Source: Mycolicibacterium monacense (lineage in GTDB: Bacteria; Actinomycetota; Actinomycetes; Mycobacteriales; Mycobacteriaceae). Taken from it: DNA of 64,000 nucleotides. Positions within the stretch are counted from its first letter, which is position 1. Each line of letters opens with the position of its first letter. The stretch is taken from NCBI RefSeq assembly GCF_010731575.1, contig NZ_AP022617.1:1364001-1428000 (forward strand). Reading direction: 5' to 3'. The position numbers and the translations under genes are program-made. The notes below the pieces were generated by a model. The model had not been told where the DNA came from, did not search any database, and was given only the letters and a program-made list of their open reading frames with translations. Shown one piece after another: positions 23,228 to 61,412 of the stretch.

Positions 23228-23659
23228 ATGTTTCTGGGCACCTACACGCCGAAGCTCGACGACAAAGGGCGGCTCACACTGCCCGCCAAGTTCCGCGACG
23301 CACTGGCAGGAGGGTTGATGGTCACCAAGAGCCAGGACCACAGCCTCGCCGTCTATCCGCGTGCGGAATTCGAGAAACTGGCCCGCCGGGCCTCACAGGC
23401 GTCGCGGAGCAATCCGGAAGCCCGCGCCTTCCTGCGGAATCTGGCGGCCGCGACCGACGAACAGCATCCCGACGCCCAGGGTCGGATCACGCTGTCGGCC
23501 GACCACCGCCGCTACGCCAGCCTGTCGAAGGAATGCGTGGTGATCGGCTCGGTCGACTACCTCGAGATCTGGGACGCCGCGGCGTGGCAGGAGTACCAGC
23601 AGGCCCACGAAGAGAACTTCTCCGCGGCGACTGATGAAACTCTGCGCGACATCATCTGA
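23228..23659 (+). CDS. mraZ: Transcriptional regulator MraZ
   Basis: First gene of the dcw cluster: a 143-residue AbrB-like regulator that assembles into a ring and binds the repeats upstream of its own gene. Both duplicated motifs are present: [16 protein letters not shown] near the N-terminus and [16 protein letters not shown] in the second half (DxxGR pattern twice). The ATG at 23228 ([11 protein letters not shown]) is the standard N-terminus and follows GCAGGAGG. The 3' end overlaps rsmH by 26 bases. Confidence 0.95.
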
Positions 23660-38507: not shown

Positions 38508-38540
38508 ATGAGCGCTTGCGCGAAGAAGGTAGAGCGATGA
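38508..38540 (+). other. Leader mini-ORF and dispersed-repeat copy overlapping the ftsZ start
   Basis: An ATG at 38508 opens a 10-codon ORF ([10 protein letters not shown]) whose TGA overlaps the ftsZ ATG as ATGA. AGAAAGG lies upstream of the mini-ORF, so it could be translated. Its first 18 bases (38508-38525) are identical to both repeat units in the nirB-nirD junction. The downstream half supplies GAAGAAGG, the likely ftsZ Shine-Dalgarno. A coupling role is inference. Confidence 0.7.
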
Positions 38541-39694
38541 CCCCGCCGCACAACTACCTCGCCGTCATCAAGGTCGTCGGCATCGGCGGCGGTGGCGTCA
38601 ACGCCGTCAACCGGATGATCGAACAGGGACTCAAGGGCGTCGAGTTCATCGCGATCAACACCGACGCGCAGGCGTTGTTGATGAGCGATGCGGACGTCAA
38701 GCTCGACGTCGGGCGGGACTCGACCCGCGGCCTCGGGGCGGGGGCCGATCCGGAGGTGGGCCGCAAGGCCGCCGAGGACGCCAAGGACGACATCGAGGAG
38801 CTCCTGCGGGGCGCCGACATGGTGTTCGTCACCGCCGGCGAGGGCGGCGGCACCGGCACCGGCGGTGCGCCGGTGGTGGCCTCGATCGCGCGCAAGCTCG
38901 GCGCGCTGACCGTCGGCGTGGTGACGCGACCGTTCTCGTTCGAGGGCAAGCGGCGCAGCAACCAGGCCGAGAACGGCATCCAGTCGCTGCGCGAGAGCTG
39001 CGACACGCTGATCGTCATCCCCAACGACCGGCTGCTGCAGATGGGCGACGCCGCGGTCTCGCTCATGGACGCGTTCCGCAGCGCCGACGAGGTGCTCCTC
39101 AACGGTGTGCAGGGCATCACCGACCTGATCACCACGCCCGGTCTGATCAACGTCGACTTCGCCGACGTCAAGGGTGTGATGAGCGGTGCGGGCACGGCGC
39201 TGATGGGCATCGGTTCGGCCCGCGGTGACGGCCGGGCGCTCAAGGCCGCCGAGATCGCGATCAACTCGCCGCTGCTGGAAGCCTCGATGGAGGGTGCCCA
39301 GGGCGTGCTGCTGTCGGTGGCCGGCGGTAGTGACCTGGGGCTGTTCGAGATCAACGAGGCCGCGTCGCTGGTGCAGGACGCCGCGCATCCCGAGGCCAAC
39401 ATCATCTTCGGCACCGTCATCGACGACTCGCTCGGCGACGAGGTCAGGGTCACCGTGATCGCCGCCGGATTCGACTCGGCGGGTCCGAGCCGCAACCCGG
39501 TGGTGAGCCCGAGCGCGGCCGCCACCCAGCCGATCGCCCCCGGGCGGGCGGGCAAGGTGGCCTCGCCGCTGTTCGAGCCGGCCGATCCGGCGAGCGTGCC
39601 GGTGCACACCAACGGCGCGACCGTCAGCATCGGTGGCGACGATGGCGGGATCGCCGACGACGACGTCGACGTGCCACCGTTCATGCGGCACTGA
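38537..39694 (+). CDS. ftsZ: Cell division GTPase FtsZ
   Basis: Tubulin-like GTPase that forms the Z ring. The 385 residues include [15 protein letters not shown] at the N-terminus, the tubulin signature [16 protein letters not shown], the nucleotide and T7-loop regions ([15 protein letters not shown]), and the conserved C-terminal peptide [10 protein letters not shown] that binds SepF and FtsW. The ATG at 38537 ([10 protein letters not shown]) is the conserved start; a TTG at 38516 would add seven residues encoded by the upstream repeat. A linker of about 60 residues precedes the C-terminal peptide. Confidence 0.96.
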
Positions 39695-39715
39695 CCCGGG
39701 TTCGATACTGGGAAC

Positions 39716-40420
39716 GTGACCGTTCGTGTGCGGCGGGTGACCACGACCCGCGCAGGCGGTGTCTCGGCGCCGCCGTACGACACCTTCAACCTCGGTGACC
39801 ACGTCGGAGATGATCCGGCCGCCGTCGCCGCCAACCGCGAGCGCCTCGCGAAGGCGACCGGGCTCGACGGCCGCCTGGTCTGGATGCACCAGGTGCACAG
39901 CGACCGGGTGGTGCGCGTGACCGGACCGCACGACGGACCGGTCGACGACGCCGACGGTCTGGTGACCACGACCCGCCGCCTGGGGCTGGCCGTCGTCACC
40001 GCCGACTGTGTGCCGGTCCTGCTGGCCGACGCGCGCGCCGGGGTGATCGGCGCCGTCCACGCCGGACGGGTCGGGGCGCGCGACGGCGTCGTCGCGCGCG
40101 CGGTGGAGACGATGTGCGAGGCCGGCGCGCGGGTCGAGGACATCTCGGTACTGCTCGGCCCCGCGGTGAGCGGCCGCAACTACGAGGTGCCCGAGGCGAT
40201 GGCCGCCGACGTCGAGGCGGCGCTGCCCGGTAGCCGGACCACCACCGCACGCGGCACCGCCGGCCTGGACCTGCGGGCCGGAATCGCCCGCCAGCTCACT
40301 GATCTGGGCATCACGGCCATCGACGTCGACCCGCGCTGCACCGTCGCCGACCGCAACCTGTTCAGCCATCGCCGCAACGCTCCCACCGGCAGGCTGGCCT
40401 CGCTGGTGTGGATGGAGTGA
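39716..40420 (+). CDS. pgeF: PgeF/YfiH-family (laccase-domain, DUF152) protein
   Basis: A 234-residue member of the YfiH/PgeF family. In E. coli PgeF edits peptidoglycan precursors by removing wrongly added L-Ser, and other members (LACC1/FAMIN-type) have purine nucleoside activities. The three metal/active-site residues are visible: His in WMHQVHSDRV, Cys in VVTADCVPVLLAD, and His in IGAVHAGRVG. The GTG start lies 21 bases after ftsZ. It overlaps the next gene by 4 bases (GTGA). Location in the dcw cluster fits the precursor-editing role. Confidence 0.9.
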   Translation: MTVRVRRVTTTRAGGVSAPPYDTFNLGDHVGDDPAAVAANRERLAKATGLDGRLVWMHQVHSDRVVRVTGPHDGPVDDADGLVTTTRRLGLAVVTADCVPVLLADARAGVIGAVHAGRVGARDGVVARAVETMCEAGARVEDISVLLGPAVSGRNYEVPEAMAADVEAALPGSRTTTARGTAGLDLRAGIARQLTDLGITAIDVDPRCTVADRNLFSHRRNAPTGRLASLVWME

Positions 40421-41181
40421 GCACCGTGGTCACCACCCGGGAGTCCGAGTTGGCTGCCTCGCTGGCCGCGCTGCGCGAACGGCTCGCCCGCGCCGCGGAC
40501 GCGGCGGGCCGCGATGTCGCCGAGATCGCGCTGCTGCCGGTCACCAAGTTCTTCCCGGCCTCCGACATCCGGATCCTCTACGGGCTGGGCTGCCGCGAGT
40601 TCGCCGAATCGCGTGAGCAGGAGGCGTCGAAGAAGGCGGCCGAACTGGCGGGCGAGTTCGCCGGCGACCCGGTGCGGTGGCACATGGTGGGCCGGATCCA
40701 GCGCAACAAGGCCAGGGCGGTCGCGCGCTGGGCGTACGCCGCGCATTCGGTGGACAGCGCCAAGCTGATCGCCGCGCTCGACCGGGGCGCGGGCGACGCG
40801 CTCGGCGACGGGGTACGCACGGCGCCGTTGCGGGTCTACCTGCAGCTCAGCCTCGACGGTGACGTCGAACGCGGCGGGGTCGACGTCGACCAGCCGGAGC
40901 TGATCGACCAGCTGTGCGCCGCAGTCGATTCCGCGGAGGCGCTCGAGTTCGTCGGGTTGATGGGCATCCCGCCGCTGGGTGCCGACGCCGAGTCGGCATT
41001 CGCGCGTCTGCAGTCGGAGTGGCGTCGGGTGCGGCAGCGCCGCAAAGAGATTGGCCGCGGGCAGCGGTTCGAGTTGTCCGCCGGGATGTCCGGTGATCTC
41101 GAGATGGCGGTCCGACACGGCTCGACATGTGTGCGTGTCGGAACCGCGCTTATGGGACCTCGTCCTCTAACGTCACCCTGA
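40417..41181 (+). CDS. YggS-family PLP-binding homeostasis protein (Rv2148c homologue)
   Basis: A 254-residue pyridoxal-phosphate-binding protein of the alanine racemase N-terminal fold. The PLP Lys lies in LLPVTKFFPASDI, followed by FAESREQEASKKAAEL, HMVGRIQRNKARAV and the phosphate-binding GLMGIPPLG and SAGMSGDLEMAVRHGSTCVRVGTALMG. Family members control PLP and amino-acid pools without a known catalytic reaction. The GTG at 40417 overlapping the pgeF stop is preferred; a GTG at 40408 adds three residues. sepF follows 66 bases later. Confidence 0.92.
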   Translation: MSTVVTTRESELAASLAALRERLARAADAAGRDVAEIALLPVTKFFPASDIRILYGLGCREFAESREQEASKKAAELAGEFAGDPVRWHMVGRIQRNKARAVARWAYAAHSVDSAKLIAALDRGAGDALGDGVRTAPLRVYLQLSLDGDVERGGVDVDQPELIDQLCAAVDSAEALEFVGLMGIPPLGADAESAFARLQSEWRRVRQRRKEIGRGQRFELSAGMSGDLEMAVRHGSTCVRVGTALMGPRPLTSP

Positions 41182-41247
41182 GTAGTCACTCCAGTCACAT
41201 CTTCATCACAGACACCACAGCTTGACGGTCTTCAGAAGGGTCGCGCG

Positions 41248-41910
41248 ATGAGCACACTGCACAAGGTCAAGGCCTACTTCGGTATGGCGCCCATGGATGA
41301 CTACGACGACGAGTACTACGAGGACGACGACCGCGCGGAGCGCGGCGCGGCCCGTGGCTACGCCCGTCGGCCCCGCGAGGACCGGTTCGAGGAGGAGGGC
41401 TACATCGATCGCGCCGGCCGCGAGTACGACGACCGGCCGGCACCGCGCGAATACGACGAACCGCCGATCTACCGCGGCGGGTATGACGAGCCGCGGTTCG
41501 ACCCCCGACTCCGCGGCCCGCGTGAGTTCGAGCGGCCGGCACCTCGGCTGGGTGCGCTGCGCGGTTCGACCCGCGGCGCCCTGGCGATGGACCCGCGCCG
41601 CATGGCGATGCTCTTCGAGGAAGGCAGCCCACTGGCCAAGATCACGACCCTGCGTCCCAAGGACTACAGCGAGGCCCGGACCATCGGGGAGAAGTTCCGT
41701 GACGGGACCCCGGTGATCATGGACCTGGTCTCCATGGACAACGCCGACGCCAAGCGTCTCGTCGACTTCGCCGCCGGCCTGGCGTTCGCGCTGCGCGGGT
41801 CGTTCGACAAGGTCGCCACCAAGGTCTTCCTGCTCTCGCCGGCCGACGTGGACGTCACCGCCGACGAGCGCCGGCGCATCGCCGAGGCGGGCTTCTACGC
41901 GTATCAGTGA
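41248..41910 (+). CDS. sepF: Cell division protein SepF
   Basis: A 220-residue FtsZ membrane anchor and activator. An N-terminal amphipathic membrane-binding helix ([25 protein letters not shown]) leads into a long charged, disordered linker rich in Asp, Glu, Arg and Tyr. A DUF552 core follows (about 120-205: [49 protein letters not shown]), with the FtsZ-binding and polymerising beta sheet. The ATG follows AGAAGGG. Its place after the yggS-type gene and before the yggT-type gene is the standard actinobacterial order. Confidence 0.95.
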
Positions 41911-42007
41911 CTTCGGCGGTGCCTCGGCCCGGCAGGTAGGCTGACGAGGTTGTTTTCTCACCTGTATCGAATGTCACATATCTGCCCGTAGTGAGGTCGA
42001 GCTTCCG

Positions 42008-42298
42008 TTGGCGCTGTTCTTCGAAATCCTTGGTTTTGCGCTGTTCGTCTTCTGGCTCCTGCTCATCGCGCGGGTGGTCGTCGAGTTCATCCGGTCCTTC
42101 AGCCGGGACTGGCGCCCGCGGGGGCTGACGGTCGTGGTGCTCGAGGTGATCATGACGCTGACCGATCCGCCGGTGAAACTGCTGCGGCGCTTGATTCCCC
42201 AGCTCACCATCGGCGCGGTGCGTTTCGACCTGTCGATCATGGTGCTGCTGCTCGTCGCGTTCATCGGTATGCAGTTGGCGTTCGGAGCGGCGGCCTGA
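42008..42298 (+). CDS. YggT-family membrane protein (Rv2146c homologue)
   Basis: A 96-residue protein with two membrane helices (FFEILGFALFVFWLLLIARVVVEFI and FDLSIMVLLLVAFIGMQLAFGA) around the signature MTLTDPPVKLLRRLIPQLTIGAVRFD. The start is a TTG at 42008, which gives the same N-terminus as the remembered M. tuberculosis protein. The YggT family lies beside sepF and divIVA in many bacteria and is thought to act in envelope or turgor-related functions, but the mechanism is unknown. A 203-base gap with the likely wag31 promoter follows. Confidence 0.9.
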   Translation: MALFFEILGFALFVFWLLLIARVVVEFIRSFSRDWRPRGLTVVVLEVIMTLTDPPVKLLRRLIPQLTIGAVRFDLSIMVLLLVAFIGMQLAFGAAA

Positions 42299-42501
42299 CG
42301 CAGGCCCGCAGGCCATCGCCGCGGGGCCGCCCCGGGCGCCGAAGAACGTCGGAAGAACGCGGAAGAAATTGAAATTCGCTCTTAAAATTTGACCTCCGCT
42401 GCAACCGCCGGGTCTGGTGTGACAGGATGGACGCCAGTTGCGATCCATGCAGGCTTTACACTTTGAGATCGGTTGACGGTCCAGACTCAAGGGGGCAGAC
42501 G

Positions 42502-43320
42502 ATGCCGCTCACACCCGCCGACGTTCACAACGTCGCGTTCAGCAAGCCGCCCATCGGCAAGCGGGGCTACAACGAGGACGAAGTCGATGCCTTCCTCGAC
42601 CTGGTCGAGAATGAGCTGACCCGGCTGATCGAGGAGAACACCGACCTGCGTCAGCGGGTCGCCGAACTGGACCAGGAGCTGTCCTCGGCCCGGTCCGGCG
42701 GTGGCGTCTCCCAGCCGCAGGCCGCCCCGGTCTACGAGCCGGAGCCCGAACCGACCCCGCCGCCGCAGCCGGTGTACGAGGCGCCGCCCGCGGCGCCGGC
42801 GCCCACCGCGCAGCAGAGCGAGGACTCGGCACTGCGCGCGGCCAAGGTGCTGAGCCTGGCCCAGGAGACCGCCGACCGGTTGACCAGCACCGCCAAGGCC
42901 GAATCGGACAAGCTGCTCGCCGACGCGCGGGCCCAGGCCGATGCGATGGTCAGCGACGCCCGGCAGACCGCGGAGACCACGGTCACCGAGGCCCGTCAGC
43001 GCGCCGACGCCATGCTGGCCGACGCGCAGACCCGGTCGGAAACCCAGCTGCGGCAGGCCCAGGAGAAGGCGGATGCGCTGCAAGCCGACGCCGAGCGCAA
43101 GCACTCCGAGATCATGGGCACCATCAACCAGCAGCGGACCGTGCTCGAAGGCCGGCTGGAACAGCTGCGGACGTTCGAGCGTGAGTACCGCACGCGCCTG
43201 AAGACCTACCTGGAATCGCAGCTCGAGGAGTTGGGTCAGCGGGGTTCGGCCGCGCCGGTGGATTCGAGCGCCAACAACGACGGCGGCGGCTTCAACCAAT
43301 TCAACCGCGGCAACAACTGA
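42502..43320 (+). CDS. wag31: Polar growth scaffold Wag31 (DivIVA)
   Basis: A coiled-coil protein that marks the growing poles and recruits the elongation machinery. The 272 residues have the N-terminal DivIVA membrane-binding domain ([20 protein letters not shown], then [21 protein letters not shown]), a Pro/Glu-rich linker (about 61-105), and a long coiled coil ending [23 protein letters not shown]. In M. tuberculosis Wag31 PknA phosphorylates Thr73 in a QATQAIP context. Here the equivalent stretch reads [13 protein letters not shown], with no Thr or Ser at that site. The ATG at 42502 is the conserved start. Confidence 0.96.
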
Positions 43321-43337
43321 CGCGGCGGCGCTGATCG

Positions 43338-43745
43338 ATGCTGATCATCGCGCTCGTCCTGGCTGTCATCGGGCTCGCCGCCCTGGTGACCGCCGTGGTC
43401 ACCGGCAATGCCGTGATCGCCTGGGTCTGCATTGCGGCCAGCGCGGTCGGTGTCATCCTGTTGATCGTCGACGCCGTCCGCGAGCGCTCCCGCACACCCG
43501 CCGCGAAGACCGCCGGCGCCACCGGAACCGCTGATCACGCGCCGGACGACGAGTTCGACGCCGACTATCCCGACGAACCCGGGGACTACGAGGCCGACGA
43601 CACCCAAGCGGCGGCCGAACGGAACCCCGACGTCGACAACCACACCGGCACCGACTCCGATGCCGACACCCGCGCGGTCCCGTTCGACGAACGCCACGAG
43701 GACGAGGTCGGCTCGGAGCACCCCGAGGAACCCACCACCCGCTAG
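43338..43745 (+). CDS. Small acidic membrane protein (Rv2144c homologue)
   Basis: 135 residues. Two membrane helices occupy the first 50 residues ([46 protein letters not shown] in two segments), followed by RERSR and a strongly acidic, disordered cytosolic tail (Asp/Glu/Pro/Thr). The function is unknown. It follows wag31 by 17 bases and is probably cotranscribed with it. It overlaps the convergent phosphoribosyltransferase gene by 4 bases. Confidence 0.85.
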
Positions 43746-44425
43746 CGGGTCGGTGTCGCCAGCAGGTCCCGTACCTCGTCGTCGGTGACCTGGTGGAAAT
43801 CGGCATACACCTGGCCGACGGCTTCGAATCCGGCAGGCGTCGTCGCGCAGATCACCGCATCGGCTTCCGCGTCGACCGCGCGGCATGCCGAGGGCGGAGC
43901 CACCGGAACGGCCACCACCACCCGCGCGGGTTCCGATGCCCGGACCGCGCGCACCGCGGCCAGCATGCTCGCGCCGGTGGCGATGCCGTCGTCGGTGAGC
44001 ACCACCGTCGCCCCGGTGAGCTCCGGCGGTGGACGACCCTGTCGGTAGGCGGTCTCACGGCGGCGCAGTTCCACCGTCTCGCGCTCGATCGCGCGCTGCA
44101 GGGCCTCCTCGGTGATGTTCAGTCGGGAGACGAGTTCGTCGTTGACCACCACACCGCCGCCGGAGGCGATGGCACCCATCGCGAGTTCTTCCCATTGCGG
44201 CACCCCGAGTTTGCGCACCAGGAACACGTCCAGCGGTGCGCCGAGGCCGTGGGCGACCTCCCAGCCGACGGGAACGCCGCCGCGCGCCAGACCCAGCACC
44301 ACCACGTCGTCGCGCCCGCGGTAGGCCGACAGTTTCTCGGCCAGGACCCGGCCGGCGTCGCGGCGGTCCCGGAAGGTGCGCCCGGCGGACCTGCCGCCGA
44401 GCCGTTCCCATCCGCTCATCGCCAT
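43742..44425 (-). CDS. Phosphoribosyltransferase-domain protein (Rv2143 homologue)
   Basis: A 227-residue type I phosphoribosyltransferase-fold protein. The PRPP loop is [20 protein letters not shown], and the N-terminal flexible-loop area is [21 protein letters not shown]. This actinobacterial subgroup often appears beside hydrolase or erythromycin-esterase domains, and its substrate is unknown. The start is taken as the ATG at 44425 ([11 protein letters not shown]), with ATG 44419 as alternative; upstream the frame is antisense to the SDR gene. It is divergent from that SDR gene by 82 bases. Confidence 0.87.
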
Positions 44426-44507
44426 GAGGGCGTACCCATCGCGCAGCGCGGCAATCCACCTTCCGGGCGGCGCCGAATACTGACTGCACACCGGTGACGG
44501 GAGAACC

Positions 44508-45866
44508 ATGGGCATCGAGTACGAGAGCATCGTCGACCACCCGATCGACGAGGTGTTCGCCTGGCACACCCGGCCGGGCGCCATGCCCCGGCTGGTGCCC
44601 CCGTGGCAGCCGATGACGGTGGTCGCCGAGACGCCGTCGCTGGCGGACGGGCAGGCGGTGCTGGGCCTGCCCGGCGGGCTGCGCTGGATCGCCCAGCACG
44701 ACCCGGCCGGGTACGACCCGCCGTACCGGTTCGTCGACGCCCTGTCGTCGCGGGGGGTGATGTCGCTGCCGCCACGGGTGATCGGCTGGTGGCGGCACAC
44801 CCACGACTTCGCCGACGCCGGTGCCGGCCGCACCCTGGTACGCGACCGCGTCGACACGACCGTGCCGGCAGCGATGCTGCGGTCGACCTTCGTCTACCGG
44901 CACCGCCAACTGGCCGACGACCTGGCCTCCCACCGGGACGCCGCCGCGGCCGGGCGCGGGCCACTCGTCGTCGCCGTCACCGGTGCGTCCGGATTGGTCG
45001 GCGCGGCGCTGACCGCGATGCTGACCAGCGGTGGGCACCGGGTCATCCGGCTCGTGCGGGGGGCCCCGAAGGGCCCGGACGAGCGGCGATGGGATCCGCA
45101 GCACCCGGCGGCGGACCTGCTGACCGGTGTGGACGCCGTGGTGCACCTGGCGGGTGCCTCCATCGCCGGCCGGTTCACCGCGTCGCACAAGGCCGCGATC
45201 CGTGACAGCCGCATCGAGCCCACCCGCCGGCTCGCGGAGCTGGCCGCCGCAGGCGGACCGCGCATCTTCGTCAGCGCCTCGGCGATCGGGTTCTACGGCT
45301 ATGACCGCGGAGATGAGGTGCTGGACGAGGACAGCAGCCAGGGCACCGGTTTCCTGGCCGACGTCGTCGCGGACTGGGAGACCGCCACCGGGCCGGCGGC
45401 CGACGCGGGAGCGCGGGTGGTCACCGTGCGCACCGGAATCGTGCAGGCCGCCGCGGGCGGGACGCTGCGGCTGTTCCGGCCGCTGTTCGGCGCCGGGCTG
45501 GGCGGCCGGCTGGGCACCGGGCGGCAGTGGCTGTCGTGGATCGGGCTCGACGACCTGCTCGATGTGTACTACCACGCGCTGTGGGACGAGCGGATGAGCG
45601 GGCCGGTCAACGCAGTCGCGCCGGAGCCGGTGCGCAACGCCGACTACACCAGAACGCTGGCGGCGGTGCTGCACCGGCCGGCCGTGCTGCCCGTCCCGTC
45701 AGCCGGCCCGCGGCTGCTGCTGGGCGCGCAGGGCGCCCGTGAACTGGCCGAGGCCGACCAACGGGTGGCGCCGGCGAAACTGCTCTCACTGGGCCACCGT
45801 TTCCGCCAGCCCCACCTCGCGGATGCGCTCGCCCATCAGCTCGGACAGGGCACCCCCCCGACGTAG
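44508..45866 (+). CDS. TIGR01777-family epimerase/SDR with N-terminal SRPBCC domain
   Basis: A 452-residue fusion. The N-terminal SRPBCC domain (about 1-145; [21 protein letters not shown]) precedes an extended-SDR domain with the NAD(P)-binding loop [44 protein letters not shown] (Ser and YGY), and a C-terminal DUF1731 segment beginning about [20 protein letters not shown]. This fused form is common in actinobacteria. The substrate is unknown; related proteins act in division-site or cell-envelope functions (SulA/YfcH-like annotation), which is not proof. The ATG follows GACGGGAGA. The 3' end overlaps the convergent amidotransferase by 31 bases. Confidence 0.9.
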
Positions 45867-46558
45867 GACAGGAACGCGTCGACCAGTCCGCGGATTCGGG
45901 TGGCCGCATCGCCTTCGAGTTCCTTTGTGCGGGTGAGCAGTTCGTCGTGGTCGAGGCCGAAGGCGAGGGCTTCGCCGTCGCGGTCGTCGGCCAGCCAGTC
46001 GGTCAGCAGACCGTGGTCGAGCTCGGGGTGGAACTGCAGCGCGAGGCAGCGGTCGAGCAGGAACGCCTGCGACGCGCCGGCCGTCCTGGCGATCTCCACC
46101 GCGCCCGGCGGGACCGTCCACCGGTCGAAATGCCACTGGAACCACGGACCCGTCGAGACGAGGTCGGGCCGGTCGGTGCCGATGTCGTACCACCCGATCT
46201 CCGGTGCCGGTGCGCGCCCGACCGTCCCGCCGAACGCCTGGGCGAGGATCTGCCCGCCGAAGCACACACCGAGCAGCGCCACGCCCGCCTCGGCCGCCTC
46301 GCGCAGCATCGCCATCTCGGCGCCGACCCAGGTGCGGCGCAGCGCGTCGTCGTACACCGGCCACCGCGCACCCAGGGGCACGATCACGTCGTAGCCGGTG
46401 GGGTCGGGGAACACGACGTCGACGGCGGGGTTGGCGGCCCGCTCCGGTGGCACGACGGTGAAGGTGTCGACGTCGTAACCGGCGTCGACGAACGCCTCAC
46501 CCAGCAGTGCCTCGGTGGCGACGGGATCGTTGTACAGGAACAGGACTCGGGATGTCAC
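45836..46558 (-). CDS. Class I glutamine amidotransferase-like protein
   Basis: A 240-residue GATase1 protein with the nucleophile elbow LLGVCFGGQILA (Cys99) and the catalytic His-Glu in ALQFHPELDHG, so the triad is intact. No synthetase domain is present, so it may be a free-standing amidotransferase, a gamma-glutamyl hydrolase (PuuD-like) or another glutamine hydrolase. The GTG start gives MTSRVLFLYNDPVATEA. It lies 10 bases downstream of the pseudo-beta-lactamase gene on the same strand and may share its transcript. Confidence 0.88.
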   Translation of the reverse strand: MTSRVLFLYNDPVATEALLGEAFVDAGYDVDTFTVVPPERAANPAVDVVFPDPTGYDVIVPLGARWPVYDDALRRTWVGAEMAMLREAAEAGVALLGVCFGGQILAQAFGGTVGRAPAPEIGWYDIGTDRPDLVSTGPWFQWHFDRWTVPPGAVEIARTAGASQAFLLDRCLALQFHPELDHGLLTDWLADDRDGEALAFGLDHDELLTRTKELEGDAATRIRGLVDAFLSYVGGVPCPS

Positions 46559-46568
46559 CCGGTCATTA

Positions 46569-47780: not shown

Positions 47781-47796
47781 GGTCGATACTAGCGAG

Positions 47797-50538: not shown

Positions 50539-50703
50539 GCTCTGTTTGTCCCTCAAGATCAGTCACGAGCGCATCGGCCGAACGGTTGAGATTGTGAGCC
50601 ACCGACCTCAGTCGGCGCGCTCGGGCATTTACCGCGCAGGTTTGCTGTCATTGCGCATCGGGTAGAACGCTGCCCGTCGGGGAAGCAAATTGGGAGGGGT
50701 CCC

Positions 50704-51618
50704 ATGTCCGTTTCCTTCACCATCACGCGACGACTGCGACGCGTACCACTGGCCGTGCTGGCCGTGGCCGGCCTCGTCGGCGGCATGTGCTGGTCCGCGC
50801 CGAGCGCGCAGGCGTTCTACATCCACAACCACGCGGCCGTCACACGCGCTGCGCTTCCGCCGGATCAGGTCAACGAGATCGCCATCCTGCAGATCCTCAA
50901 CGGGCCGCCGCCCGGCGGTGGCGCCATGGGAAGCGATGCATTCGCCACCGATCAGTGGCGTCACATCGACAACGCGAAGAACCCGGGCGACATCTGTGCC
51001 CGCGCCCAACAGGCGTGGAGCACCCTCTCGCCGGTCATCCTGCGCGGGTCGCAGCCGGTCGGGCCGGGCGCCAACGCGCTCAGGGACGGTCCCGGTGCCC
51101 GTGCCGCGTTCGGCGGTCTGATGCACGCCCAGCAGGACTTCTACTCCCACTCCAACTGGGTCGAGACCAACATCGCGGCCGGCCAACCGGAGCGGCCGGC
51201 TCCCGCACTCTTCCCGGCCTGCAATCCGAGTGCCTTCCCGGCCGACCTGCACACCGGGTACTTCAACGCCCTGTACTCGGCACAGTTCCCGCTCGACGGT
51301 TGCCCGCCCGCGGGACCGCCGCCCGGTTTTCAGGAGTGCCACGCGGTGTTGAACAAGGACGGACCCAACACCGCGCGCGGCGGTCAGCCGGTTCCCGGCA
51401 CCTCGATGAACATGTACGACCTCGCGGCGAGGCTGTCGACCGCCACGAGCGCCGACCTCTACCGCCACGTGCGTGGTCTCATCGCCAGCACGGTGTCGGC
51501 GCAGAATCCCGGCGTCGACGGCGAGTGCATCGCGTCCAAGTTCTTCCGCCCAGATCTGCTGGGGCCGTGCGCCAAGTTCGTCAGCCCGTTCGGCGGGCCC
51601 GGGTTCATGCCGCGCTGA
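50704..51618 (+). CDS. Secreted Het-C/CinY-like protein (zinc phospholipase C-like fold)
   Basis: A 304-residue exported protein with a signal peptide (basic RRLRR, hydrophobic core, cleavage after AQA, mature end FYIHNHAAVTRAAL). It carries the motif MHAQQDFYSHSNWVETN (H141, D145, H149), the hallmark of Het-C and related proteins with a zinc phospholipase C/S1-P1-like helical fold, plus an earlier RHIDNAKN. Six cysteines in the mature part (DIC, PAC, DGC, QEC, GEC, GPC) could form three disulfides. Phospholipase or nuclease-like activity outside the cell is inference. Similar actinobacterial proteins are annotated CinY. Confidence 0.8.
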   Translation: MSVSFTITRRLRRVPLAVLAVAGLVGGMCWSAPSAQAFYIHNHAAVTRAALPPDQVNEIAILQILNGPPPGGGAMGSDAFATDQWRHIDNAKNPGDICARAQQAWSTLSPVILRGSQPVGPGANALRDGPGARAAFGGLMHAQQDFYSHSNWVETNIAAGQPERPAPALFPACNPSAFPADLHTGYFNALYSAQFPLDGCPPAGPPPGFQECHAVLNKDGPNTARGGQPVPGTSMNMYDLAARLSTATSADLYRHVRGLIASTVSAQNPGVDGECIASKFFRPDLLGPCAKFVSPFGGPGFMPR

Positions 51619-52267
51619 CCCGGTAACGCCGTTCTGGCCGCCCCGCCCCGTACTGCAACCGCAACTCCAGCGCGCCGGTACTCAAATAGTGCTCCAGGTA
51701 GCGGCGTGCGCTCACCCGCGAGATGCCCACCAGCTCAGCGCATTCCGTCGCCGACACCTCGCCGGCTCGCTGCACTGCGTCGAGGACCAGCCGCCCGGTC
51801 TCGATGCCCAGACCCTTGGGCAGCACTTCGTTGCCGCTGGGCCGGCCGAACAGCGAGTCGATCAGCGACTGATCGGCGCCGGTCGCGGATTCCAGGGCGT
51901 CGGCGCGGGCCGCGAACGCCTCCAGCTTGGCGCGCAACTGGGCGAACTCGAACGGTTTGATCAGATAGTCCGCCGCGCCGCCGTCGAGCGCCGCACGGAC
52001 GGTGTCGAGTTCCCGCGCGGCGGTGATCATGATGACCCCGACGCCGTCCCCGCCCGACCGCAACCGCTGCAGCACCTCGAGGCCCGTCATATCCGGCAGG
52101 TAGACGTCCAGCAGAATCAGGTGCGGTGCGAGTTCCCGTGCGGCGGTGAGTGCTTCAGCGCCCGTTCGGGCAACCCCGACCGCCCGGAACCCGTCCACCC
52201 TTTCGACGAACCGGCGGTGGATGTCGGCGACCATGAAATCGTCGTCGACCACCAGCACGTCACGCAT
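51605..52267 (-). CDS. CitB/DctR-family response regulator
   Basis: A 220-residue response regulator. The receiver domain has VLVVDDDFMVADIH (acidic pair), LILLDVYLPDMTG (phospho-Asp) and DYLIKPFEF (Lys). The C-terminal HTH (VSATECAELVGISRVSARRYLEHY) is the type found in CitB, DcuR and DctR regulators of carboxylate uptake. The start is the ATG at 52267. It overlaps the sensor kinase stop by 8 bases. With the kinase it should control the divergent tctCBA operon. Its 3' end overlaps the Het-C-like gene by 14 bases. Confidence 0.92.
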   Translation of the reverse strand: MRDVLVVDDDFMVADIHRRFVERVDGFRAVGVARTGAEALTAARELAPHLILLDVYLPDMTGLEVLQRLRSGGDGVGVIMITAARELDTVRAALDGGAADYLIKPFEFAQLRAKLEAFAARADALESATGADQSLIDSLFGRPSGNEVLPKGLGIETGRLVLDAVQRAGEVSATECAELVGISRVSARRYLEHYLSTGALELRLQYGAGRPERRYRVSAA

Positions 52268-53879
52268 GCGCAGCCACCCGGCTGGGCGGCAACCGCACGG
52301 TGAACACTGCGCCACCGTCTGCGCGGTCGGAGACGTCCACCACGCCGCCGTGCTGGGCGGTGACCAGCCGGACCAGTGCCAGGCCGATCCCGCGACCGCC
52401 CGGCGACTCGGGTTTCGAGGTCACCCCGCGGGCGAAGATCTCTTCCCGGAGATGTTCGGGCACACCGGGTCCGGTGTCGGCGACGGTGATCGACAGCCCG
52501 TCGGCGTCGTCGATGCGCACGCTCACCCGCGCCGCCCCCGAACCCACGGATACGTCGACCGCGTTGTCGATCAGGTTGCCCAGCAGGGTGATCACGTCGG
52601 TCGCCGCCGCCGGATCCAATGCGCCGAGATGCGAATCCGGGTCGAGCCACAGCGTCACCCCGCTCTCGGCGGCCAGCGTGGTCTTCGCGATCAGCAGCGC
52701 CGCGACCGCGGGGTCGGCGATCCGGCGGGTCACCGCGTCGCTGATCTCCGCACGCCGGCGCGTCAACTCGCCGATGAGATCCCGCACCGCGTCGTATTCG
52801 CCCAGCTGAACCAGCCCCGAGATGGTGTGCAACTGGTTGGCGAATTCGTGCGTCTGCGCGCGCAACGTGTCGGTGACGCTCTTGTGTGACGACAACTGTG
52901 CCTGCAGAGCGGCCAGTTCGGTGCTGTCACGCATCGTGGTCACCGTACCGATCCACTCACCCCCGCTCGAGGCGGTGCGCCGGTTGAGCGCCAACACCCG
53001 GGTGCGGGTGGCGATCACGACGTCGCGGCCGTCCTCACCGGAGAGCAGGAATTCGACCACCGCCGGATCGAGCCCCGCCGCATCGGCGCGCCGGCCCACC
53101 GCCGCCCCCGAGAGTCCGAGCAACTCCTGGGCGCTGTCGTTGAGCAGGGTGATGACACCGTCGGTGTTCACGGCCACCACACCCTCACGGATGCTGTGCA
53201 GCAACGCTTCCCGGTGATCCGCCAGCCCGGCTATCTCGGCCACCTCCAGGCCCCGGGTGTGTCGCTTGATCCGCCGCGACAGCAGCCACGAGGCCACCAG
53301 CCCCAGTGCCGCGGCCAGTCCGAGGTAGAGCACGAGCCGTTCACCGGCCACGCTGAGCAGTTGCCACACCGACGGATACGGTTCGCTGACCGACGCGATC
53401 GCCAGCACCTCACCCCGGTTGGTCAGCACCGGCACGTGCCCGATCAAGCTGTGCACACCGTCGATGTCGTCGTCGCCGTACCAGGCCCGGCCCTCGTCGG
53501 CGCGGGTGACGCTCAGGTCCACCCGGTTACCGACGCGCGACGGATCCGACGACACCAGCACCGTGCCGTCCGCAGCGACGATCTCCGCCAGCGCCGCACC
53601 TGAGAGCGCCACCGCCCGATCCACCTCCGGCGCCAGTACCCGCGCGGCGAACGGATCGGCCAAGCGGTCCCGCACGATCGGGGTGGACGCGACGTTCTCG
53701 GCGACCGCGATCATGCGTTGGCTGCGCGTATCCCGGAACTCCCGGGTGGACTGCGCGATCGAGACCGCCGCCACGGCCGGCAGCACCACCGCCACCACCA
53801 GCAGCTGGAACACCAGGAACCGTCCGGCCAGGCTGCGGGCACCGAATCCGCGCACCGTCGCGGACCATCGTGAACTCAA
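52260..53879 (-). CDS. CitA/DcuS-type sensor histidine kinase
   Basis: A 539-residue membrane kinase of the CitA/DcuS family. A first helix (LAGRFLVFQLLVVAVVLPAVAAVSI) precedes an extracytoplasmic PDC-type ligand domain (about 45-170, including VSSDPSRVGNRVDLSVTRADEG), a second helix (VLYLGLAAALGLVASWLLS), a cytosolic PAS domain (EGVVAVNTDGVITLLNDSAQ), the phospho-His region TLRAQTHEFANQLHTISGL (SPOB-like), and an ATPase domain (NLIDNAVD, ADTGPGVP, GGRGIGLALV). The start is a TTG with AAAGGACG upstream. It probably senses the tri- or dicarboxylate imported by TctCBA. Confidence 0.93.
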   Translation of the reverse strand: MSSRWSATVRGFGARSLAGRFLVFQLLVVAVVLPAVAAVSIAQSTREFRDTRSQRMIAVAENVASTPIVRDRLADPFAARVLAPEVDRAVALSGAALAEIVAADGTVLVSSDPSRVGNRVDLSVTRADEGRAWYGDDDIDGVHSLIGHVPVLTNRGEVLAIASVSEPYPSVWQLLSVAGERLVLYLGLAAALGLVASWLLSRRIKRHTRGLEVAEIAGLADHREALLHSIREGVVAVNTDGVITLLNDSAQELLGLSGAAVGRRADAAGLDPAVVEFLLSGEDGRDVVIATRTRVLALNRRTASSGGEWIGTVTTMRDSTELAALQAQLSSHKSVTDTLRAQTHEFANQLHTISGLVQLGEYDAVRDLIGELTRRRAEISDAVTRRIADPAVAALLIAKTTLAAESGVTLWLDPDSHLGALDPAAATDVITLLGNLIDNAVDVSVGSGAARVSVRIDDADGLSITVADTGPGVPEHLREEIFARGVTSKPESPGGRGIGLALVRLVTAQHGGVVDVSDRADGGAVFTVRLPPSRVAAHA

Positions 53880-53907
53880 CGACCAAAACGTCCTTTGCTT
53901 CCGAATG

Positions 53908-53923
53908 AGTGACTCACGTCACT
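53908..53923. promoter_or_regulatory. Inverted repeat AGTGAC-TCAC-GTCACT in the kinase/tctC divergent gap
   Basis: A perfect 6-bp palindrome with a 4-base spacer lies in the 57-base region between the divergent kinase and tctC starts, 13 bases before the tctC ATG. It is a natural operator candidate for the adjacent response regulator. The symmetry is seen; binding is inference. Confidence 0.5.
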
Positions 53924-53936
53924 TTCCGGGTCCAGT

Positions 53937-54923
53937 ATGACCACCGTGAGACGAAACCTGCGGGCGCTGGCCGTGATCGTGCTGGCTGTGGTGCTGCTGA
54001 CCGCGTGCGGGGTGACCCGCGGCAACGAGTCCGAGGGTCTGCACCGGCTGCGGATGATGGTGCCCAACAGCCCCGGCGGTGGCTACGACCTGACCGCCCG
54101 CACGGCGGTGAAGATCATGGAGGACGACGACATCACGGGCCGCGTCGAGGTGTTCAACGTGATCGGCGCGGGCGGCACCGTCGCGATGGCCCGGCTGATG
54201 AACGAGCGCGGGAACGACGACCTCATGATGACGATGGGCCTCGGCGTGGTCGGTGCGACCTACACCAACGGCTCCAACATCAAGGCCTCCGACGCCACCG
54301 CGCTGGCCAAGCTCATCGAGGACCCGGGCGCGATCTTCGTCCCCGCCGACTCACCGTTGAAGACGGTCGGTGACTTCGTCGAGGCGTGGAAGGCCGATCC
54401 GGCCAACGTGACCATCGGCGGCGGATCGTCGCCGGGCGGCCCGGACCACCTGTTCCCGATGGAACTCGCCGAAGTCGTCGGCGTGGATCCCAAGAACGTC
54501 AACTTCATCACCTACGACGGTGGCGGTGACCTGCTGACCGCGCTGCTGGGCAAGAAGATCACCGCGGGGACGTCGAGTCCCGGTGAGCTGATCGATCAGA
54601 TCGAGGCCGGCCAGCTCCGCGTGCTGGCCGTGTCCAGCGACGAACGGGTGGAGGGTATCGATGCGCCCACCCTCAAGGAGTCCGGCATCGATCTGACGTT
54701 CGCCAACTGGCGCGGAGTCCTCGCGCCGCCCGGCATCTCCGACGATGCCAAACAGGCGATGATCTCCGCGCTCGAGGAACTCCACGGCACCGAGCAGTGG
54801 AAGGAGGCGCTGACCAAGAACGGCTGGACCGACGCCTTCGTCACCGGTGCGGCGTTCGAGCAGTTCCTCGTCGAACAGGACAACCGGGTCTCGTCGACCC
54901 TGACCGAATTGGGGCTGGTATGA
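53937..54923 (+). CDS. tctC: Tripartite tricarboxylate transporter solute-binding lipoprotein TctC
   Basis: A periplasmic-side (lipid-anchored) binding protein of the TTT system, 328 residues. The signal peptide ends in the lipobox VVLLTAC (Cys24). The mature domain has the Bug/TctC pattern: [56 protein letters not shown] and [16 protein letters not shown]. Tricarboxylate or other carboxylate binding is expected from the family, and the exact ligand is unknown. It is the first gene of tctCBA; the stop overlaps tctB by 4 bases. Confidence 0.94.
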
Positions 54924-55426
54924 CCACCACCGACAAACCGGCCCGCGTCGACCGGGCGCAGTACCTGATCTGCGCCGTGCTGGTCGCCGTCGGCGCGTTC
55001 CTGATCGTCGACGCGCTGCGCCTGACCGCCGGATTCGCCAAGGTCGACCCGGTGGGTCCCAGGGCCTTCCCGATCGTCGTCGGGGCGGTGCTGATCGTGC
55101 TGGCGGTGATCCTGGCGATCGCGATCCCGCGCGGGTCGGTGGGGGAGGCCGACGCCGGCGAGGACGTCGACCCGGAGGCGCCGAGCGACTGGCGCACCGT
55201 AGGCCTGCTCGTCGGGCTGTTCGTCGCCGTCATCCTGCTCGTGCAGCCACTCGGCTGGGTGATCACCGGCACCCTGCTGTTCGCCGGAGCGGTGGCCGTG
55301 CTGGGCAACCGCCACTGGGTGCGCAACATCGCGATCGGGCTGGCGCTGTCGCTGGCGAGTTTCTACGCGTTCTACTCCGGGCTCGGAATCCCGCTGCCCG
55401 CAGGCATTCTCGACGGGATCCTGTAG
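54920..55426 (+). CDS. tctB: Tripartite tricarboxylate transporter small membrane subunit TctB
   Basis: A 168-residue protein with four predicted membrane helices ([54 protein letters not shown], and the paired [34 protein letters not shown]). These have the DPVGPRAFP and GLGIPLP features of TctB. It is the small integral subunit of the TTT carboxylate importer. The ATG overlaps the tctC stop (ATGA), and tctA starts immediately after its stop. Confidence 0.92.
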
Positions 55427-56977
55427 ATGAACAATTTCGACTGGCTGATGCAGGGCTTCGCGGAGGCCGCGACGCCGATGAACCTGCTCTACGCGGTCAT
55501 CGGCGTGCTGCTGGGCACCGCGGTCGGTGTGCTGCCGGGGATCGGCCCCGCGATGACGGTGGCGCTGCTGCTGCCGGTCACCTACAACGTCAGCCCGAGC
55601 GCGGCGTTCATCATGTTCGCCGGCATCTTCTACGGCGGCATGTACGGCGGATCGACCACCTCGATCCTGCTGAACACCCCCGGTGAATCGTCGTCGGTGA
55701 TCACCGCGATCGAGGGCAACAAGATGGCCAAGGCCGGCCGGGCCGCCCAGGCGCTGGCCACCGCCGCGATCGGCTCGTTCGTCGCCGGTGCGATCGGCAC
55801 TGCGCTGCTCGCGGCCTTCGCACCCCCGATCAGCAGGTTCGCGGTCACGCTCGGCGCGCCGTCGTACCTGGCGATCATGGTGTTCGCGCTGGTCGCGGTC
55901 ACCGCGGTGCTCGGCGCCTCGAAGCTGCGCGGGGCGATCTCGCTGTTTCTCGGCCTGGCCATCGGGGTGGTGGGCATCGACTTCCTCACCGGCCAACCGC
56001 GGGCCACCTTCGGGCTACCGCAGCTGTCCGACGGTATCGACATCGTGGTGATCGCCGTCGCCGTGTTCGCCGTCGGCGAGGCGTTGTGGGTGGCCGCCCA
56101 CCTGCGGCGGCGCCCCGCGGAGGTGATCCCGGTGGGCCGGCCGTGGATGGGTCGCGACGACTTTCGCCGGTCATGGAAGCCCTGGCTGCGCGGCACCGCC
56201 TACGGCTTCCCGTTCGGTGCGCTGCCCGCCGGCGGCGCCGAACTGCCGACGTTCCTGTCCTACATCACCGAGAAGAAGCTCGCGAAACGCACGGGGCACG
56301 ATGTGGAGTTCGGCAAGGGCGCGATCGAGGGCGTGGCCGGACCGGAGGCGGCCAACAACGCGTCGGCGGCGGGCACGCTGGTGCCGATGCTGTCGCTCGG
56401 CCTGCCCACCAACGCCACCGCGGCGGTCATCCTGACCGCCTTCGTGTCCTACGGAATCCAGCCCGGTCCAACGCTTTTCGAGAAGGAGCCGTTGCTGATC
56501 TGGACGCTGATCGCCAGCCTGTTCATCGGCAACCTGCTGCTGTTGGTGCTCAACCTGCCGCTGGCCCCGCTGTGGGCGAAACTGCTGCGCACACCGCGGC
56601 CGTACCTGTACGCCGGCATCCTGTTCTTCGCCACGCTGGGTGCTCTGGCCGTCAACATCCAACCGCTGGACCTGGCGCTGCTGTTGGTGTTCGGACTGCT
56701 CGGGTTGATGATGCGCCGCTTCGGCCTCCCGGTGCTGCCGTTGATCATCGGGGTCATCCTCGGGCCGCGGATCGAACGCCAACTGCGGCAGAGCCTTCAA
56801 CTCGGCGGCGGCGACTGGACGAGCCTGTTCACCGAACCGGTCGCGATCGTCGTCTACGTGTTGATGGCGCTGTTACTGCTGGCCCCGTTGGTGCTCAAGC
56901 TCTTTCACCGTAGCGAGGACACTCTGCTCATCGTGGAGGACGATGTGGACCAACAGGAGAAGGCGGCACGGACATGA
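55427..56977 (+). CDS. tctA: Tripartite tricarboxylate transporter large membrane subunit TctA
   Basis: A 516-residue permease with about 12 membrane helices that carries the secondary transport step. Family signatures are visible: [59 protein letters not shown], and [33 protein letters not shown]. The gene abuts tctB with no gap. Its TGA overlaps the ATG of the first 35-bp repeat unit that leads to uspA, so the operon probably continues into uspA. Confidence 0.94.
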
Positions 56978-57043
56978 TCACCGACGAGCGCTCGCGCGAG
57001 GAGACGGCATGATCACCGACGAGCGCTCGCGCGAGGAGACGGC
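56974..57043 (+). repeat. Two perfect 35-bp tandem repeats between tctA and uspA, each a coupled mini-ORF
   Basis: Units 56974-57008 and 57009-57043 are identical. Each opens with ATG and encodes [12 protein letters not shown]. The tctA TGA overlaps the first ATG, the first mini-ORF stops in the second ATG, and the second stops in the uspA ATG, always as ATGA. GAGGAGACGGC before each ATG can serve as Shine-Dalgarno. The 21-base core GACGAGCGCTCGCGCGAGGAG differs by three transitions from the element before nirD. Confidence 0.95.
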
Positions 57044-57436
57044 ATGATTGTCGTCGGATACACCGCGGACCGGTTCGGTGAGGTGGCGGTCGAACACGGG
57101 ATCACCGAGGCCAACCGCCGCGGCACCGGACTGCTGGTGGTCAATTCCACCGCAGGCGACTCCTACGTCGACGCCGCGTTCGCCCAGTCCAAGGACGTCA
57201 GCGGACTCGAGGCGCAACTCGCCGACTGCGGGGTGCCGTACGAGGTGCAGCAACCCGTCGGTGTCTATGCCGCGGATGCGTTGCTCGCCGCGATGGAGCG
57301 CGACGATGCCGAACTGCTGGTGATCGGCCTGCGTCACCGCAGCCCGGTGGGGAAGCTGTTGCTGGGCAGCGTATCCCAGCAGGTGCTGCTGGAATGCCCG
57401 AAACCGGTGCTGGCCGTCAAACCGGACGAGGGCTGA
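57044..57436 (+). CDS. Universal stress protein (UspA family)
   Basis: A 130-residue single-domain UspA protein (MIVVGYTADRFGEVAVEHGI). The C-terminal nucleotide-binding pattern is LLVIGLRHRSPVGKLLLGSVSQQVLLECPKPVLAVK, close to G-2X-G-9X-G(S/T) with basic substitutions, so ATP binding is possible. It is the last gene of the tct operon, reached through two tandem mini-ORFs. Usp proteins often accompany transporters; a regulatory role on TctA is inference. Confidence 0.9.
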   Translation: MIVVGYTADRFGEVAVEHGITEANRRGTGLLVVNSTAGDSYVDAAFAQSKDVSGLEAQLADCGVPYEVQQPVGVYAADALLAAMERDDAELLVIGLRHRSPVGKLLLGSVSQQVLLECPKPVLAVKPDEG

Positions 57437-57451
57437 TCCGGCACCGCCCTG

Positions 57452-58135
57452 CTACCACTGGGCCCGCACGTTCTCGCCGATCTGGGCGGCGACCCGCACC
57501 GCCGAGTCGGCCGGATCGGGGCTGCAGGTGTTGACGTCGATGATGATGTTGTTGCGCAGCGCCAGCGCGCGTCCGCAGCCCCAGCCCGGCGCCTTGGCCT
57601 CCTGCATCATCGCCGTCGTGCTCAGGATGTGGTCCTCGTCGACGATCTTGCCGACGTCCCAGACCGACCCGCTCTGGGTGTGGGTGTACTGGCGGCAGGC
57701 CGGCCACTGGTGAACCGAGGCCTCGTAGAAGGCGGCGGCCTTCTCCCGGTACGGGAACAGCACCACCGCCTGCTTGAGGTAGTGGGTGAAATCGTCACCG
57801 TTGTTCATGCTCACACCGCGCTCGGCCCAGTATTCGCTGCCCTCGTAGACGAGCGCCTCCGCCGCGGCATCGATGGACAGGCATTCCCGGGGCTCCATGA
57901 TCCCGCTGTTGTCCTCCATTGCGGACTCCGTCCCGGTGGGCGCCATACCGGTGGTACCCATCACCGCGGAGGCCTCCTCGGGCTCGAGGAGCAGCCCGGG
58001 CAGCTCACGTTCGACGAGGGGACGCGGGATCATTGTGCGGGTCGGTGTGGTGGACTCGGCGTTGACCGTCGTGGTGCAGCCGGTGACGACAAGGCAGACG
58101 CCTGCGACAACAAGTGCGGCTCTCGATTGGCGCAT
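57452..58135 (-). CDS. PknH-like sensor-domain lipoprotein
   Basis: A 227-residue exported lipoprotein with signal and lipobox VCLVVTGC (Cys20). The mature part resembles the extracellular sensor domain of PknH found in many mycobacterial lipoproteins (LppH/LpqQ/LpqA type). Landmarks are LLLEPEEASAVMG, PRECLSIDAAAEALVYEGSEYW, WPACRQYTH, GWGCGRALALRNN and VNTCSPDPADSAV. The four cysteines after the lipobox (EC, AC, GC, TC) match the two conserved disulfides. The ligand is unknown. It stands alone on the minus strand, convergent with uspA, and does not appear to belong with the nir genes upstream (96-base gap). Confidence 0.85.
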   Translation of the reverse strand: MRQSRAALVVAGVCLVVTGCTTTVNAESTTPTRTMIPRPLVERELPGLLLEPEEASAVMGTTGMAPTGTESAMEDNSGIMEPRECLSIDAAAEALVYEGSEYWAERGVSMNNGDDFTHYLKQAVVLFPYREKAAAFYEASVHQWPACRQYTHTQSGSVWDVGKIVDEDHILSTTAMMQEAKAPGWGCGRALALRNNIIIDVNTCSPDPADSAVRVAAQIGENVRAQW

Positions 58136-58231
58136 ATGAGCATGGTGCTGTATTGGCGCCGCCGATGTGGCGAAGTCGACGGCGATTCCTGGTCACGATG
58201 CACCGCAATTCCCGATAACGAATCGGTGCCG

Positions 58232-58540
58232 TCAAGATCGGCTGAGCCGGATGGCCCCGCCGACCGCGGTGACGGGGTAGCTGCGCACCGAGAGTTCCGC
58301 CCCGCCCGCCTCCGCGCCGCTGCACAGATCGAACGTGTGGCCGTGCAGCGGGCACACCACCACCCGTTCGTCGGCCAACCCGTCGGCCAGCGGTCCGCCG
58401 CGGTGCGGACACACCGCATCCACGGCCCGCAGCGACCCGTCACGCAGCCGGAACACCGCGATCTGGTCACCGTCGACGGTGAACGTGCGGCCCTCACCGA
58501 CGGGGATCTCGTCGACCGCGCCGAGCTCCACGTCGCTCAT
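58232..58540 (-). CDS. nirD: Nitrite reductase (NADH) small subunit NirD, Rieske type
   Basis: A 102-residue Rieske-type [2Fe-2S] ferredoxin-like subunit of assimilatory nitrite reductase. The cluster-binding motifs are complete: AVCPHRGGPLADG (Cys-x-His) and VVCPLHGHTFDL (Cys-x2-His). Many enterobacterial NirD proteins lack these ligands, so this is the cluster-bearing kind. It follows nirB, separated only by the two-unit repeat. Confidence 0.94.
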   Translation of the reverse strand: MSDVELGAVDEIPVGEGRTFTVDGDQIAVFRLRDGSLRAVDAVCPHRGGPLADGLADERVVVCPLHGHTFDLCSGAEAGGAELSVRSYPVTAVGGAIRLSRS

Positions 58541-58603
58541 CTAGATCCTCGGCTCTTCGCGCAAGCGCTCATCGGGTCCTCGGCTCTTCGCGCAAGCGCT
58601 CAT
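58541..58603 (-). repeat. Two tandem mini-ORF repeats (31 and 32 bp) between nirB and nirD
   Basis: On the minus strand, unit 1 (58603-58573) and unit 2 (58572-58541) share the same first 27 bases. Both start ATGAGCGCTTGCGCGAAG, the 18 bases also found before ftsZ. The nirB TGA overlaps the first ATG (ATGA). The mini-ORF from the second ATG (MSACAKSRGSR) ends in a TGA overlapping the nirD ATG. The mini-ORF from the first ATG runs 20 codons to a TAG directly before nirD. Confidence 0.93.
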
Positions 58604-61059: not shown

Positions 61060-61412
61060 CAGATCTCCACCAGTCCGAGATCGACGATCAACGTCCCAGC
61101 GCACCCGGCGGGGGCGGCGACGAACAGTTCGAGCACCGTGTCACCGAGGAGGTCCTCCACCACGCGCAACGCCACGTGGGTGGAACCCTTGGCCGCGATG
61201 GGGAAGTACCGCATCGGTTTCCCGTCGCGGAACAGCACGACCGTGACCATCTCGGCAGTCGAGTTGCCGCCGCGGAAGTACACGGGTTGGGCGACCGCCC
61301 CGGCGGGCACGACGTAGCGCAGCCCGGGGTCGATCGGCATGGGTTTGTCAAGGCCGTTGCCCTCGAACTCGAAGGCGCCCTGCAGGAAACGAGGTGTACT
61401 TCCGTCGCTCAT
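61059..61412 (-). CDS. Small conserved protein of the nitrite reductase operon, unknown function
   Basis: 117 residues, mostly beta-strand-like hydrophobic/polar alternation (LRYVVPAGAVAQPVYFRGGN, MVTVVLFRDGKPMRYFPIAA, HVALRVVEDLLGDTVLELFVAA, GTLIVDLGLVEI), with no signal peptide and only one Cys. The pattern suggests a beta-sandwich or jelly-roll domain. It overlaps nirB by one base and is the first gene of a nirBD transcript divergent from the nitrate reductase gene. A role in cofactor delivery, assembly or regulation of nitrate assimilation is possible but not shown. Confidence 0.8.
   Translation of the reverse strand: MSDGSTPRFLQGAFEFEGNGLDKPMPIDPGLRYVVPAGAVAQPVYFRGGNSTAEMVTVVLFRDGKPMRYFPIAAKGSTHVALRVVEDLLGDTVLELFVAAPAGCAGTLIVDLGLVEI

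Follow-up and report, generated by a model that had tools for sequence, protein, structure and literature searches.

Mycobacterial interspersed repetitive units (MIRUs), reportedly described by Supply et al. in 1997, underpin tuberculosis strain typing. One review presents them as apparently mobile and as inserting at start codons with an open reading frame (ORF) coupled at -4, which likely limits their impact (PMC12548453), and another gives a unit of 46-101 bp and 41 loci in strain H37Rv (PMC3914561). Here we describe a repeat in 64,000 nucleotides of Mycolicibacterium monacense (contig NZ_AP022617.1, positions 1,364,001 to 1,428,000; hereafter the window), which lie within a 6.04 Mb genome held on one contig (G000). 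We think it probable that the repeat is a MIRU-like mobile, translation-coupled mini-cistron, namely a dispersed and tandemly amplifying element of about 32 bp that belongs to the genus Mycobacterium in the sense of GTDB. In common with MIRUs, it consists of short repeats, single or in tandem, that lie between genes and may be mobile. We could not find the sequence family described: the core strings are absent from open-access PMC papers, and topic searches of the literature returned no description of the repeat, subscription journals being mostly outside the coverage of both.

The repeat has the core GATGAGCGCTTGCGCGAAGAG and a variant GACGAGCGCTCGCGCGAGGAG, with tandem periods of 30-35 bp, and it is dispersed over the host genome. 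Exact copies of GAGCGCTYGCGCGARGAG number 43, compared with none for a reversed-pattern control, and at up to two mismatches there are 68 matches genome-wide compared with 5 for the reversed pattern. For the window, dinucleotide shuffles predict 0.04-0.05 matches at up to three mismatches, and none of 100 shuffles reached the observed counts. Coincidence or a local duplication in the window, for which we found no point in favour, is refuted by these counts and by the spread of the element, and can practically be dismissed. In a draw of 401 genomes from the family, exact copies were found in 36 of the 52 genomes of the same genus (1 to 76 each), and the element was present in 4 of the 349 genomes outside it, with one copy each. 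A separate draw from the genus had the element in 89 of 148 genomes, so that the confinement to this lineage suggested by an earlier note on the window gives way to a distribution over much of the genus. Among the matches listed in a scan of named genomes for CGATGAGCGCTTGCGCGAAGAG (at least 120 stretches), 106 were labelled Mycobacterium, Mycolicibacterium, Mycolicibacter or Mycobacteriaceae, including M. aurum, M. vanbaalenii, M. iranicum, M. septicum and M. wolinskyi, and the other 14 were draft or metagenome contigs under different labels. Loci L091, L107, L109, L114 and L115 are matches in contigs that bear the labels Melainabacteria, Bifidobacterium, Rokubacteria and Planctomycetota; L091, with three copies spaced at 32 bp, is possibly a contig of mycobacterial origin that was mis-binned, and in L115 the core falls within an 89-bp tandem array that is apparently unrelated.

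MIRUs sit at stop/start sites of the DTGA type, and so does the element. With ORFs called from G+C at codon positions and not from annotation, the window's genome has 27 arrays with one or more exact copies, and in 17 of them a coding ORF on the same strand terminates at the TGA of the element itself. One further array has its stop in the TGA that immediately precedes the element, and three have it 8-9 nt upstream; the upstream frame continues for 24-48 nt in three, and three arrays belong to none of these groups. In other species the element TGA is the upstream ORF stop in 56 of 112 arrays, a count obtained with a search string that already contained CGATGA. Over-representation beyond the three loci of the window, the point on which the earlier note would have had its proposal stand or fall, is thus found both in copy number and at stop codons.

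Every unit contains a mini-ORF some 10-12 codons long. As in MIRUs, this internal ORF is coupled to the downstream gene: a clear downstream gene follows 109 arrays and is missing from the vicinity of 46 more, and among the 109 the stop of the last mini-ORF overlaps the downstream start in 78, by 4 nt in 69 (-4) and by 1 nt in 9 (-1). Measured from the last ATG of the element, the gene start lies at a distance of 2 mod 3 in 88 of the 109. Thirty-two base pairs is the commonest distance (46/109), and because this phase needs no selection when a constant 32 bp is inserted into an ATGA overlap, the other distances are the informative cases. These are 2 mod 3 in 42 of 63 arrays and, when one array is taken per homologous downstream protein, in 34 of 49 (p = 2.7e-7 against one third); 200 random choices of the representative arrays gave a mean of 32.4 of 49. 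At ATGA or GTGA starts, 30 of 38 such distances are in phase, with values of 23, 26, 29, 35, 38, 44 and 53 and with differing spacers. It is conceivable that the repeat is neutral or selfish and that coupling is a by-product of a fixed 32-bp insert into an ATGA overlap, with no need for selection or mini-ORF translation. The commonest distance, the 32-bp insert length in three pairs of junctions discussed below and the drift in phase of internal periods all suit this explanation, but it does not predict the phase of the 34 independent junctions with other distances and differing spacers, and we consider it unlikely. The phase of the non-32 distances argues, if indirectly, for selection for ribosome delivery to the downstream start.

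These observations fit a mechanism in which a unit would insert directly 5' of a TGA, typically a gene stop or the TGA of an ATGA stop/start overlap. As the unit starts with CGATGA, the upstream gene would still end there with at most one Arg codon added, and the same ATGA would start the mini-ORF, whose stop would be the TGA overlapping the ATG or GTG of the next gene. Ribosomes ending the upstream gene would then pass via the mini-ORF to the downstream gene by termination-reinitiation, and insertion would therefore cost the host little. The units would be moved by a putative mobility activity.

The 18-mer ATGAGCGCTTGCGCGAAG occurs in the window exactly three times, at 38508-38525 (plus strand), 58555-58572 (minus) and 58586-58603 (minus), and the 21-mer variant GACGAGCGCTCGCGCGAGGAG twice, at 56983-57003 and 57018-57038 (plus), with three transitions separating the variants, all as the earlier note had counted. 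The coordinates also agree with the overlaps it described, in which the last mini-ORF stop overlaps the gene start as ATGA before ftsZ, uspA and nirD, and the upstream stop overlaps the first mini-ORF start as ATGA at the uspA and nirD loci. The names of these genes and of tctA and nirB, which come in part from that note, are presumptive. Before ftsZ (38537..39694, plus) there is one 29-bp unit (38508-38536) with a mini-ORF at 38508..38540 (plus), the stop of which overlaps the ftsZ ATG as ATGA. The preceding ORF ends at 38336, about 170 nt upstream, and only the downstream end is coupled at this locus; here ribosomes would initiate in the leader and then pass through the mini-ORF. The uspA locus is a chain of three ATGA overlaps that links the upstream ORF, presumably tctA (55427..56977, plus), two GAC-variant mini-ORFs of 12 amino acids each and uspA (57044..57436, plus). 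The stop of the upstream ORF (56975-56977) overlaps the start of the first mini-ORF (56974..57012, plus; 35-bp unit), and the stop of the second (57009..57047, plus) overlaps the uspA ATG at 57044. On the minus strand, the TGA of nirB (58600..61104; TGA at 58602-58600) lies within the ATGA of unit 1, the ATG of which is at 58603. The reading frame of unit 1 (58541..58603, minus) extends across unit 2 as far as a TAG (58541) that abuts nirD, and the mini-ORF of unit 2 (MSACAKSRGSR; 58537..58572, minus) has a stop that overlaps the ATG of nirD (58232..58540, minus) at 58540.

The GAC form has no internal ATG, a variant that sets the element apart from MIRUs, and it makes up 5 of the 27 exact arrays of the window's genome. 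At uspA, with its 35-bp units, and at L064, an ATG a few bases upstream opens a mini-ORF (..DERxREE..) with the same ATGA ends. At L042 (G000:C1:2226840-2226985, minus) the array is made up of five units of the GAC type spaced at 32 bp, all of which contain a TAG, and the upstream coding frame terminates within the first unit. Locus L046 (about 2918-3001, minus) has three 33-bp in-frame units (peptide DERLREx) near the N-terminus of a gene whose ortholog at L164 has none, and L047 (5996, minus) has one in-frame unit with this peptide within a reading frame that we take to resemble MiaB. Rickettsia palindromic elements also have some copies in frame within coding regions, a trait shared by the copies at L046 and L047, whereas the element is much shorter, forms no hairpin and lies mostly at gene junctions.

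Orthologous junctions with and without the repeat suggest how it arrives. A search for nirD in 30 genomes gave nine full-length matches with a readable junction, a partial match in G516 being left out. The nirB-nirD junction is empty, with a plain ATGA overlap, in G215, G473 and G487; G430 has one unit there, G000, G402 and G511 have two each, G232 has two together with a partial one, and the array of G466 is degenerate. Three clean pairs aligned by eye (G430/G215, L036/L168 and L174/L051) have an insert of 32 bp, which lies directly 5' of the host TGA and can be read as starting with CGATGA; a further difference of 15 or 6 nt is found in the neighbouring coding regions of two of these pairs, and several other orthologous junctions differ by lengths other than 32. 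At the right junction, a preceding CG and ATGA are enriched over 162 background overlaps. A GC that follows is not enriched (28/69 compared with 48/162 background overlaps, p = 0.13), and a target longer than TGA is therefore not established. The ftsZ leader is without the element at 21 of 24 loci of the genus, with GGAGGAAG a short way ahead of the ATG in 20 of the 21. It is filled in three, with one unit in G000 and in G406 and at least three in G402, a close relative (86.6-90.5% identity over compared loci), and in each the stop of the last mini-ORF overlaps the ftsZ start as ATGA or TGATG, although the three may share ancestry. Copy number per array ranges from 1 to 7 and differs between orthologous junctions across species, in keeping with the variable tandem copies of MIRUs. 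This variation and the position before the essential gene ftsZ would be expected of a host-beneficial portable regulator, with the mini-ORF acting as an attenuator or tuning device that spread by adjusting downstream expression; such a role is very unlikely, as the genes targeted have mixed functions, the element is patchily distributed among relatives and RNA structure does not exceed that of shuffles.

The niche shared with MIRUs extends to a single junction. Between fas and acpS, G000, G516 and G451 carry the element, G157 has a MIRU and G423 a stretch that resembles a degenerate MIRU, with neither element nor MIRU seen in the other 25 of 30 genomes. A presumed MIRU core was used, and the loci read belong to relatives within the genus. 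Of the 148 genus genomes, 67 contain this core, frequently as tandem copies with a period of about 50-54 bp, and ATGA or GTGA follows within 3 nt in 7 of 8 MIRU loci. Primer matches for MIRU10 were obtained in 2 of 396 genomes, and both loci show a long coding region. Common architecture and niche, including the ATGA or GTGA starts that MIRU units of relatives precede, might mean that the element is a true MIRU subfamily, homologous to the MIRU of M. tuberculosis and diverged from it. We regard this as highly improbable: the element and the presumed MIRU core show no detectable similarity (local score 16.0, shuffle mean 16.6, with 592 of 1000 shuffles scoring as high), and the unit of about 32 bp falls short of the 46-101 bp of MIRUs. 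Because the sequence is not detectably related and the unit is shorter, the element is a MIRU-like family that is not filed as MIRU, which agrees with the likeness to MIRU under a different sequence that the earlier note had pointed out.

The two families also differ in that they largely occupy different lineages of the genus. Among the 148 genomes, 18 have both, 49 only MIRU, 71 only the element and 10 neither (Fisher p = 1.7e-14, uncorrected for kinship). In a tree of 29 genomes, most of them picked for richness in one family, a branch with support of 100/99 parts 10 MIRU-rich genomes, and one with few copies of either, from 16 element-rich genomes and two with few. The split follows lineage, since one strongly supported branch parts the two kinds; mutual exclusion through competition was dropped as an explanation because lineage accounts for the table. 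G407 and G414 are the only two of the 148 genomes with at least five copies of both. A wider reading, which we regard as possible without quite favouring it, is that MIRU and the element are families unrelated to each other, both of mobile translation-coupled mini-cistrons, that arose in separate lineages of a single genus and would share a niche at the TGA of stop/start overlaps, where ribosome hand-through may make insertion tolerable even before the essential ftsZ.

Repetitive extragenic palindromic (REP) elements form hairpins and are mobilised by Y1 (RAYT) transposases. The element shares with them the form of short dispersed intergenic repeats without an enzyme of their own. It differs in having no RNA structure above shuffles (z-scores of 0.46, 0.18 and -0.46 for three sequences), and an RNA hairpin or REP-like element was rejected on this ground. 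Rfam gave no match at gathering score at the three sites; the only one within the window is mraW RNA (RF01746) near 23.7 kb (23656-23760; 82 bits on the plus strand, 50.9 bits on the minus strand). Of 26 genomes of the two kinds taken together, 9 had a Y1_Tnp match above the cut-off, and a Y1 transposase was rejected as the mobiliser since there was no match in G000 or in 8 of the 12 element-rich genomes searched. G402 (4.0 Mb) has 25 exact copies of the element and nine Y1-transposase matches, and the window's 6.0 Mb genome 43 copies and no match. Coupled upstream ORFs and gene pairs overlapping as ATGA or TGATG have the same termination-reinitiation layout with -4 or -1 overlap (PMC12548453), the difference being that the mini-ORF of the element is borne by a dispersed repeat. 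The earlier note had also supposed that the repeat supplies a Shine-Dalgarno (SD) sequence, a proposal that holds only in part. The spacer is indeed purine-rich, and 64 of 93 spacers contain a 4-mer complementary to the anti-SD (GGAG, GAGG, AGGA or AAGG), but duplex energy is no better than in shuffles.

Several observations weigh against a mobile, translation-coupled mini-cistron. The predicted SD pairing, calculated with a presumed anti-SD tail, is -7.18 kcal/mol compared with -7.34 kcal/mol in composition shuffles (p = 0.45), and no mobility enzyme was found, the search for a Y1 transposase giving 0 matches in the window's genome. Thirty-one of the 109 arrays are uncoupled at the downstream start, in addition to the 46 without a clear downstream gene nearby, and some copies lie inside coding regions, as at L046. 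Locus L092 gained a unit where relatives (L106) have no ATGA, and it is uncoupled. In the window's genome taken by itself the phase is modest, with 8 of 12 non-32 distances at 2 mod 3 (p = 0.019). Internal periods are loose in phase: among 51 arrays with a TGA in every unit, one of them counted twice, 33, 13 and 6 entries are at 2, 0 and 1 mod 3, and a strict 2-mod-3 chain within tandem arrays is not upheld. A period of 0 mod 3 fuses adjoining mini-ORFs in frame and keeps the same last stop. Eleven arrays have an internal period that is out of phase, and 7 of these have their last unit in phase. The idea of a portable coupling element or short mobile repeat, as the earlier note put it, holds for dispersal, for insertion at stop/start overlaps and for the coupling that is kept, all of which, like the frame rule, can be read directly in the DNA, with unusually clear evidence on insertion and phase; mobility, based on empty and filled sites between species, and translation of the mini-ORFs with hand-over of ribosomes are inferred.

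How MIRUs move and why they are located at ATGA overlaps are questions that a second, unrelated family in other lineages, with many comparisons of empty and filled sites, would open to tests in laboratory species. The phase rule may be a sign, drawn from sequence alone, of the weight that reinitiation from mini-ORFs of about 10 codons carries in vivo, and the copy before ftsZ offers a natural experiment on a gene that is essential. For these species the repeats are potential variable-number markers, and annotation of gene starts can be misled by them. If true, the reading of two families would establish translation-coupled insertion repeats as a general class, with a putative TGA-recognising mobility activity.

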